A stretch of DNA of 33,181 nucleotides from Candidatus Falkowbacteria bacterium RIFCSPLOWO2_12_FULL_45_13 (GTDB lineage Bacteria; Patescibacteriota; Patescibacteriia; Patescibacteriales; GWC2-42-12). This document shows positions 9,504 through 12,459 of the stretch, piece by piece. Numbering within the stretch: position 1 is the first letter of the stretch; each line of letters opens with the position of its first letter. The translations under genes were made by a program, and so were the position numbers. The DNA lies in contig MFFY01000036.1 of NCBI GenBank assembly GCA_001778055.1, positions 1 to 33,181 on the forward strand. The letters are read 5' to 3'. Under the pieces are notes generated by a model. The model made no database searches and was not told the origin of the DNA. It worked only from the letters and a program-made list of their open reading frames with translations.

Positions 9504-11789
9504 TTATTTTACAGGGCTTACGCGTTCTCTAAGATTACCTGACATTAAATAAAAGGCGATCGGCTTATAACTCTTCGGATCTTTAAAATAATCTTTTATT
9601 TTTTCAACAATTTCGCCCGGAATAAAGTGCTGTTTAACGAAATAGTCAATCATACCCAGCCCGGCGGCCCTGGCCACGTCCGCCTGCTGGCTCATATTGC
9701 ATAAACCGACTATGGGAATTTTCTTGGTTGCGGCGTGAGACTTTAAAATTTCCGCGGCCGTGAATCCATCCATCACGGGCATAATTATGTCCATAATAAT
9801 CAAATCCGGTTTTTCTTTTAAAACCACCGCTACCGGATTTTTAGAAGGACTGCCATAATTCACGTAAGCGAAGCCGGCTTTCTCGAATTTGGCGCCATAC
9901 ATTTTAGCCAGCATCCCATCGTCCTCAAAATGCAAAATTCTAAAATTCATTTTTTTTGCCGAGGCGCTAAACAACGACGCCTCTCCGGCCAATATAACCT
10001 GCTCGTTATTGTTTATAACCTTTCTGGGCAGAGCGCCCGCGCCCGGGCCGATGACGCCTTGCTCTTCCATCAGATCTAAAAGTCTGGCCGAACGAGCGTA
10101 ACTGATGTTAAGCTTGCGTTCTAAATAAGCGGCGGAGGCATGGCCGGATTTAATTACCAGCTCTTTGGCTTCTCCGAGCATATCATCAACCAAGGCCGGA
10201 TTGGCATTTTCCAGGGCGGCTCTTTTCTTCATCTTCTTGTACATCTCCGGCGTGATAAAAACTTCTCTCGGATTAGCGCCGCTGGCCGGGCCGATGACGC
10301 CGAAATTTTCCAGCTGATCCAGGATATACGAGGCCCGGGCATATTCGATGCGCAGCTTTCTTTGCAGCAACGAGATCGAGGCATGACCTTCTTCAATGAC
10401 TAGGCTTTTGGCCGTTTCGAGCAACTCATCCAAATCATCGCCCGAAGAAGCCAAATCTATCACATCGGCTGGTTTAAAATTTCCGCTCTGACCGCGAAAG
10501 TAATCAACCACGTTTTTTATAATTTCATGGCCAACGTAAGGAAGCTGGAGCCGAACCGGCTGGCTCATTTCGGCGTTAATAAACAAAGCCTCTCCCTTGC
10601 CGGACAGCCGTTCGGCTCCGCCCGTATTTAAAATCTCTCTGGATTCTTGTTCGGAGGAGGCGGCTAAGGCCAGCCTGGCCGGAAAATTGGCTTTCAATGC
10701 GCCGGAAAATAATTCATCGCCCGGCTTAGACGTTGCCGCTACTAAATGAAGGCCGCCCGCCCTGCCCAGCTGTAAAAGTTTAATCATTTTCCCCGCCAGT
10801 ATCTTCTTCTGATCGCCAATGCAAAAGTCAGAAATTTCAGCCAGGATAAAAATGATGTAAGGCAGCTTTTCCGGGCGGTCTTTATTATATTCTTCTAAAT
10901 TGCGCATTTCAGCCGCGGCAAAAATTTTGAGCCTGAGGTCCAGCTCGCCCGAGCACCAGTAAAGCGCGTTAATAATTTTTTGATAGGTAGTGATCACCGG
11001 AGTCAAAAGATACGGTAAACTATTGTAAACCGTCAGATCAACCCTCTTTGAATCGGCTAAAATAAATCTTAACACGCGCGGACTATGCTTAGTCATTAGA
11101 CTGATAATCAAAGAATTGATAAAAACCGATTTTCCCGAACCGGCGGCGCCGCCGATTAATAAATGGGGTAAATTATGCAAATTCACGCTCCGTTGCTTGT
11201 TTTCCGAATCTCTGCCAAAAGGCACAGTTAAAGGATTTTTGGTATTTATAAATTTATCGGTTTCCAGCTCATGCCCCAAGCTGACGCCGGCTTGGCGCCG
11301 GTATGGCACTTCTACGCCGATTAAATCTGTGCCGGAAATCGGCGCCTCGATTTTTATGGGATGGACCAAGAGCTCTGAAGCCAGGTCATGTTTTACGGCT
11401 AAAATTTCCGCGGCCTGGACGCCGGCGGCCGGCTTAAAAGAGAATGTCGCGGCCCGGGGTCCAATTAGGGGCTCATTCATGGTTTCAACTTTAATATTAT
11501 GGTCGCGTAAGGCTTTTTCAATAATTTCTTTAAGGTGCTTGACATCGTCCGAGCTGAATTTTTGGCCGGACGATTTCAGAAGTTTTAGGGGCGCTCTAAT
11601 GTCAGGCGTTTCCAGACACCACCAGCTGTTGCTAAGATGCCTCTGGCCAGGTTTAGACAATCGGTTTAAAAGACTGGCGTCCTTGGCCCGGCCCATTAAA
11701 TCGGTAATGGATTTTTTAATTTTGTCCAATTCCAAGATAATAATAATTAAAATGGCTAAAATAAGGATTAAAAAAATTTGTAAAAACAT
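9504..11789 (-). CDS. FtsK/SpoIIIE-like ATPase with tandem winged-helix (FtsK gamma-like) domains and a C-terminal receiver domain
   Basis: GGAAGSGKSVFINSLI Walker A; two repeats ...ARASYILDQLENFGVIGPASGANPREVFI and ...ARSARLLDLMEEQGVIGPGAGALPRKVI; C-terminal REC (ILHFEDDGMLAKMY...DLIIMDIIMPVMDGFTA...VKQHF). Confidence 0.88.
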   Translation of the reverse strand: MFLQIFLILILAILIIIILELDKIKKSITDLMGRAKDASLLNRLSKPGQRHLSNSWWCLETPDIRAPLKLLKSSGQKFSSDDVKHLKEIIEKALRDHNIKVETMNEPLIGPRAATFSFKPAAGVQAAEILAVKHDLASELLVHPIKIEAPISGTDLIGVEVPYRRQAGVSLGHELETDKFINTKNPLTVPFGRDSENKQRSVNLHNLPHLLIGGAAGSGKSVFINSLIISLMTKHSPRVLRFILADSKRVDLTVYNSLPYLLTPVITTYQKIINALYWCSGELDLRLKIFAAAEMRNLEEYNKDRPEKLPYIIFILAEISDFCIGDQKKILAGKMIKLLQLGRAGGLHLVAATSKPGDELFSGALKANFPARLALAASSEQESREILNTGGAERLSGKGEALFINAEMSQPVRLQLPYVGHEIIKNVVDYFRGQSGNFKPADVIDLASSGDDLDELLETAKSLVIEEGHASISLLQRKLRIEYARASYILDQLENFGVIGPASGANPREVFITPEMYKKMKKRAALENANPALVDDMLGEAKELVIKSGHASAAYLERKLNISYARSARLLDLMEEQGVIGPGAGALPRKVINNNEQVILAGEASLFSASAKKMNFRILHFEDDGMLAKMYGAKFEKAGFAYVNYGSPSKNPVAVVLKEKPDLIIMDIIMPVMDGFTAAEILKSHAATKKIPIVGLCNMSQQADVARAAGLGMIDYFVKQHFIPGEIVEKIKDYFKDPKSYKPIAFYLMSGNLRERVSPVK

Positions 11790-11847
11790 ATGATTTATAT
11801 TAATTCATTTAAATTTTAACATAAATCCGGCATCAGTTCAATTTAAG

Positions 11848-11946: not shown

Positions 11947-11982
11947 AAAAGGGACCTGCGAGCTTCTCTGGCCGCAGGTCTT
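11947..11982 (-). terminator. Rho-independent terminator
   Basis: Reverse strand GACCTGCG-GCCAGAGAAGCT-CGCAGGTC followed by CCTTTTTTT. Confidence 0.8.
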
Positions 11983-12015: not shown

Positions 12016-12459
12016 TCAGGCCGGAGGCGTTGGGCGCGCTTTAATGCGCGTCAGCAGCATGGTGATGACCGCCTGCGCGGCCCAATCCAATATAAGCTGG
12101 CTAACCGTATCGCCTTGGAGGAAGACGCCATTTTTTGCTTCCAAGATATGAGAATCGTGAAAATGCCAAATAATCTGGATAAGGGTTTGCTGCAAGCCTA
12201 CCTCCCCATGGCGGATGATATAAAGCTGATCTTCCTCGTTCGGGAAATTCTTTTGAATCCGCTCCTTAATCCCGGTTTTCCGAGCTTTCACGATTTTAAG
12301 CTTTTGAGCAGACAAGTGCGGCGCCCGCTCTCCTGGTTTCAAACAACCGACAAAGCTGTTCCAAATCTTCTCCTCCTTAATTCCCTCGGGGAAAAGTTTT
12401 TTCAAGATGGCGGTTGCGCGCTGTTTTTTGCTGGTTCTTCTGTTTAATTTCATTTTCAT
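12016..12459 (-). CDS. Hypothetical protein (147 aa)
   Basis: Reverse ORF bracketed by a strong promoter (12536-12564) and terminator; basic N-terminus; no family recognised. Confidence 0.55.
   Translation of the reverse strand: MKMKLNRRTSKKQRATAILKKLFPEGIKEEKIWNSFVGCLKPGERAPHLSAQKLKIVKARKTGIKERIQKNFPNEEDQLYIIRHGEVGLQQTLIQIIWHFHDSHILEAKNGVFLQGDTVSQLILDWAAQAVITMLLTRIKARPTPPA

Follow-up and report, generated by a model that had tools for sequence, protein, structure and literature searches.

The gene at positions 9504..11789 (minus strand) of the window, the whole stretch of 33,181 nucleotides analysed here, encodes a protein in which an FtsK core with altered catalytic motifs is joined to two winged helices and to a response-regulator receiver domain (REC). 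Our preferred explanation is that this protein, FtsK-REC, is a lineage-specific second FtsK paralog turned pseudo-translocase, most likely a membrane-tethered DNA-binding regulator, possibly controlled by phosphorylation; we give it a probability of about one half. The pseudo-translocase is best read as young and restricted to its lineage, with a function that we infer from one sequence. The window is contig C36 of a genome of 938 kb in 61 contigs (91% complete), and the parts of the gene and its product are the following:

9504..11789, minus strand: ftsK-REC gene, 761 aa, a single open frame from ATG
11727..11789, minus strand: single N-terminal transmembrane (TM) helix, aa 1-21, Kyte-Doolittle hydropathy 3.4 over 19 residues
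11304..11582, minus strand: FtsK alpha domain, aa 70-162 (PF17854 FtsK_alpha, 60.4 bits)
10500..11267, minus strand: FtsK beta/RecA motor, aa 175-430, catalytically altered (PF01580 FtsK_SpoIIIE, 118.2 bits, aa 175-357)
10251..10436, minus strand: gamma domain 1, aa 452-513 (PF09397; 56-63% identity to canonical gamma)
9999..10187, minus strand: gamma domain 2, aa 535-597 (second stretch of PF09397)
9585..9941, minus strand: REC, aa 617-735 (PF00072 Response_reg, 619-731, 51.5 bits, cut-off 30.2)

All Pfam matches were above the curated cut-offs, with scores far beyond chance; the two FtsK_gamma stretches gave 141.9 bits. The original prediction of one ORF joining a TM helix, an FtsK core, two tandem gammas and a C-terminal REC is thus borne out by Pfam, hydropathy and the stop-free frame. 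In the Kyte-Doolittle scan, aa 1-21 were the sole strong hydrophobic segment, and a multi-TM (4TM) anchor was not found. In an AlphaFold single-sequence model of aa 437-761 both winged helices folded with moderate confidence (pLDDT about 70-81), and the REC was modelled poorly, as expected for a run without an alignment.

The reading frame contains no internal stop over its 761 codons. An in-frame stop lies 5 codons 5' of the ATG (open frame of 766), which makes a hidden upstream 4TM region impossible, and a tblastn search of the whole window with the N-terminus of canonical FtsK gave no match and no 4TM remnant. From these two results it follows that the single-TM N-terminus is genuine, and a frameshifted 4TM FtsK is ruled out. 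The coding log-odds of the gene was 0.294, with values of 0.13-0.40 in the neighbouring genes and negative values out of frame; codon usage was even from the N-terminus through alpha, beta and the two gammas to REC (0.24-0.38 per codon, about -0.38 out of frame). Two candidate expression signals were located upstream:

11813..11841, minus strand: promoter-like TTGAAC-17-TAAAAT with extended -10, 24 nt before the ATG of ftsK-REC (consensus match only)
11953..11980, minus strand: intrinsic-terminator-like hairpin followed by TTTTTTT, between a small upstream ORF and ftsK-REC (sequence inspection)

Downstream, an ABC ATPase gene begins 26 nt past ftsK-REC. Positions 12016-12459 (minus strand) hold an orphan 147-aa ORF with its own terminator and a near-consensus promoter (TTGACA-17-TATACT at 12564-12536); it gave no match in Pfam, NCBIfam or PADLOC.

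The flanking genes have counterparts in the genus. The products of proS, the ABC genes, the thioredoxin-like gene, S1 and FtsH were 66-86% identical to those of same-genus genomes (81-82% for the proS product, ProRS, in three genomes), and the ABC pair and the thioredoxin-like, S1 and FtsH genes were syntenic in at least one of these three. A frameshift or an assembly join between two genes, one of the objections foreseen for the original prediction, can be discarded together with contamination, given the clean frame, the uniform codon usage and the synteny of the flanks.

For the motor, FtsK-REC was aligned with 86 FtsKs of the same order, class and phylum, in which two sequences were present twice. 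Of the 140 columns with at least 95% conservation, FtsK-REC differed at 44; the other FtsKs departed at a median of 0.7% of these columns, and the next worst at 13.8%. In the beta/RecA motor, 32 of 91 such columns were changed. In the tree its end branch reached 5.41 changes per column (median 0.15), and the motor was not placeable, with no starred clade. Three motifs were altered:

11127..11153, minus strand: Walker A GGAAGSGKS, K220 kept, an invariant Thr replaced by A216 (alignment with the 86 FtsKs)
10836..10856, minus strand: Walker B IIFILAE, with A317 where all 86 FtsKs have Asp; the Glu (E318) is kept
10722..10730, minus strand: SKP replacing the invariant QRP motif, aa 354-356 (S354, K355; DNA-contact loop of P. 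aeruginosa R632); all 86 FtsKs have Q and R

These changes had been absent from the earlier description of the protein. Walker B therefore reads Ala-Glu instead of Asp-Glu, and A317 corresponds to position 304 of the 2IUS chain; calculated from the lengths of this chain and of the E. coli protein (1329 aa), this is E. coli D1121. FtsK with the Walker B Asp changed to Ala is inactive; a literature search on the label D1121A found no paper. The residues of the two DNA-contact loops of P. aeruginosa FtsK were taken from PMC7321959 and transferred with an offset of 245, fixed by the fit of the quoted residues. The arginine finger is kept (R620 to R343), as are K643 (K366) and R661 (R384), whereas R632, S634, V635 and K657 correspond to K355, G357, D358 and E380. 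Both mapped loops therefore contain an acidic residue, D358 and E380, and together with SKP this departs from the QRP loop and basic pore of FtsK, though K355, K366 and R384 are basic; E380 weighs little because K657 is not conserved among the 86 relatives.

Since the Walker B Asp and QRP, invariant in all 86 relatives, are replaced, autonomous ATP-driven translocation by FtsK-REC is unlikely, and the retained P-loop, arginine finger and E318 make residual ATPase activity possible. This result bears directly on the signal-gated translocation proposed in the original prediction, in which an active DNA translocase would have its motor switched by REC phosphorylation. Part of that proposal stands: the fusion is real, the phosphoacceptor features of REC are kept, and the full alpha-beta-gamma-gamma-REC architecture, with the Walker A Lys, E318, R343, K366 and R384, is what such a motor would present. 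However, a working motor is hard to reconcile with the Ala at the D1121 position, the change of QRP to SKP, the acidic residues in the DNA-contact loops and the extreme divergence of the protein, and we consider an active translocase quite improbable.

The gamma domains seem better preserved than the motor. Identity to canonical FtsKs was about 43% for alpha/beta and 56-65% for the gammas, and canonical FtsKs showed 68-71% in all parts. Gamma 1 had a median identity to canonical gammas of 56%, reaching 63%, and the best match of gamma 2 among the 86 was the canonical FtsK of its own genome (65%); gamma 2 alone links FtsK-REC to its genus. The contrast is suggestive only, since 3 of 19 invariant columns were changed in gamma versus 41 of 121 in the motor, a difference that was not significant (Fisher p = 0.18).

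A REC combined with winged-helix DNA binding follows the usual logic of response regulators. This, the good preservation of the gammas, the single TM and the location of the downstream ABC genes just 26 nt away would fit a membrane-bound, transcription-factor-like response regulator acting through its gamma pair, with the FtsK part as a membrane-linked scaffold and REC controlling dimerisation. Nevertheless, the P-loop, the arginine finger and the RecA/alpha signature (118 and 60 bits) exceed what a scaffold needs, and we regard this explanation as very improbable.

The canonical FtsK whose existence elsewhere had been raised in the original prediction is present in the same genome, on contig C11; it has 832 aa, a multi-TM (4TM) N-terminus and intact motifs. 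No tyrosine recombinase (PF00589) was found in this 91%-complete genome, so activation of XerCD by the gamma of FtsK-REC is unlikely. The search thus gave no such partner for the canonical FtsK either, and XerCD/dif dimer resolution is maybe absent or encoded on a missing contig.

In comparison with FtsK/SpoIIIE proteins (E. coli, P. aeruginosa and the 832-aa FtsK of this genome), FtsK-REC presents the same alpha-beta-gamma order, with alpha and beta recognised by profile, the P-loop Lys of Walker A and the arginine finger, but it has one TM instead of 4TM, a second gamma and a C-terminal REC, and lacks the Walker B Asp and QRP. Secondary FtsK paralogs likewise diverged from the canonical set were observed in the related Patescibacteria-type genomes G002 (C72) and G050 (C151) and on the IMG/VR contig L198, and in G002 and G050 the extra copy occurs beside a canonical one, as in the genome of FtsK-REC. 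In contrast to FtsK-REC, these three have 4TM-like N-termini, a DELGD Walker B, QRP and one gamma, and no REC. A common motif set, with a VVVVDELGD Walker B and intact QRP, was observed in the second paralogs of related genomes (L130, 2159-4327; L131, 83-2404) and of L198 (1814-3922); the copy of L198, a viral contig, adjoins a tyrosine recombinase, a hint that mobile elements carry such genes. The EssC/EccC ATPases of type VII secretion are FtsK-like and gave weak matches to FtsK-REC, but they work in protein secretion, lack alpha and gamma domains and carry FHA instead of REC, FHA being the signalling domains of EssC. A defence system was rejected, as PADLOC matched the FtsK/HerA ATPase parts only.

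In the receiver, the acidic pocket (E622/D623/D624), the phospho-Asp (D667) and the beta5 Lys (K719) are all present, and only the Thr/Ser switch position of beta4 is changed, to C697; the concern that the REC could lack phosphoacceptor features is thereby answered. A Komeilibacteria REC with 51% identity to this receiver likewise has Cys at that position. The nearest named relatives are from Candidatus Komeilibacteria and Patescibacteria, and one identical REC protein is shared by the Komeilibacteria record and a genome of the same class and another order (G393); from this we take the host to be a Patescibacteria-type organism. The Patescibacterial RECs compared (that of the genome's own pilus operon and those of the Komeilibacteria loci L084 and L085) were 42-54% identical to the FtsK-REC receiver; members of this subfamily are fused to various sequences, in those compared never to FtsK. 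As the relatives either stand alone or have unrelated sequences attached on the N- or C-terminal side, the subfamily appears to move between partners. Two close relatives (L164, L165) have Ser in place of the phospho-Asp (ILMSVIMP, ILMSITMP), which shows that the subfamily includes pseudo-receivers. The search for histidine kinases had a mixed outcome: the genome encodes two complete kinases (on contigs C4 and C15) and one fragment of a kinase, as well as five REC domains. A phosphodonor is thus available, but no kinase adjoins ftsK-REC.

The fusion was found in a single genome. ftsK-REC is absent from all three same-genus genomes (G005, G006, G007): in G007 two large secreted proteins are encoded between proS and the ABC pair, and proS of G005 and G006 adjoins the thioredoxin-like gene. 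This absence and the different content of the slot indicate an accessory gene in a variable site. The proS-ABC slot of a same-genus genome (L155, 7195-13256) encodes secreted proteins of 1231 and 535 aa, the latter with a metallopeptidase-like motif, HEFGHSF. The search for the architecture in related genomes covered 111 genomes of the order, 381 of the class, 380 of the phylum and 36 of a second order. In these, which amount to about 806 distinct genomes, FtsK and REC occurred in one gene nowhere else; the FtsK matches ended before residue ~552 and the REC matches were separate. FtsK-REC is therefore not a conserved system, and a conserved FtsK+REC family was rejected. Among 85,462 named species genomes, a single-protein scan, which reaches close relatives only, returned REC relatives and no FtsK+REC. 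We also rejected a phage or plasmid gene, as no phage or plasmid record covered 80% of FtsK-REC and a viral scan with the protein alone gave no relative; a viral scan aimed at alignment building gave one FtsK only. A literature search found no described FtsK-REC protein, in agreement with the original prediction.

The main rival explanation is a decaying paralog, in which a duplicated ftsK would have fused with a REC gene, either a neighbour or a mobile one, and would drift under relaxed selection with no function of its own. Its occurrence in one genome, its very long branch and the variability of the slot between same-genus genomes are consistent with this, and against the pseudo-translocase reading we found no ortholog that would show selection on the altered residues, the gammas or REC. 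On the other hand, the 761 stop-free codons with neighbour-like coding usage in every domain, the preserved gammas and REC pocket, the promoter-like site and the gene's own upstream terminator speak against decay. We consider decay unlikely.

In the pseudo-translocase reading, the second FtsK paralog has only one TM left of the 4TM divisome anchor, and its Walker B Asp and QRP are gone. It would still have the P-loop for nucleotide binding, the arginine finger and two gammas that read DNA, and would have acquired a probably phosphorylatable REC. The gamma pair would hold or read chromosomal DNA at the membrane, and ATP binding would let the ring or its subunits assemble without productive hydrolysis, perhaps in mixed rings with the canonical FtsK of the genome; alternatively, the protein may simply tether DNA at the membrane. 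A histidine kinase of the genome would then phosphorylate D667 and so alter assembly or DNA access. A broken ATP site together with two DNA-binding modules and a receiver makes a signal-controlled DNA anchor or brake more likely than a signal-driven motor. Mixed rings are physically plausible, given a statement in PMC4728128, citing Crozat 2010, that FtsK/SpoIIIE rings tolerate isolated inactive subunits. A more specific version places the chromosome pump under two-component control: an FtsK subunit deficient in hydrolysis and switched by phosphorylation would enter the rings of canonical FtsK at the membrane, or compete with them, and would brake the pump or set its position. This version is speculative and rather doubtful.

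If FtsK-REC is merely a decaying paralog, it shows how readily a Patescibacterial REC subfamily becomes attached to unrelated proteins. If it has a function, we know of no earlier case of an FtsK-type protein that contains a receiver domain; the protein would also be a natural equivalent of the Walker B mutant made in the laboratory, and it would offer a route to ask whether inactive, signal-controlled subunits regulate the rings of DNA pumps. If two-component control is true, a signal would directly control chromosome handling in a bacterium with a minimal genome.
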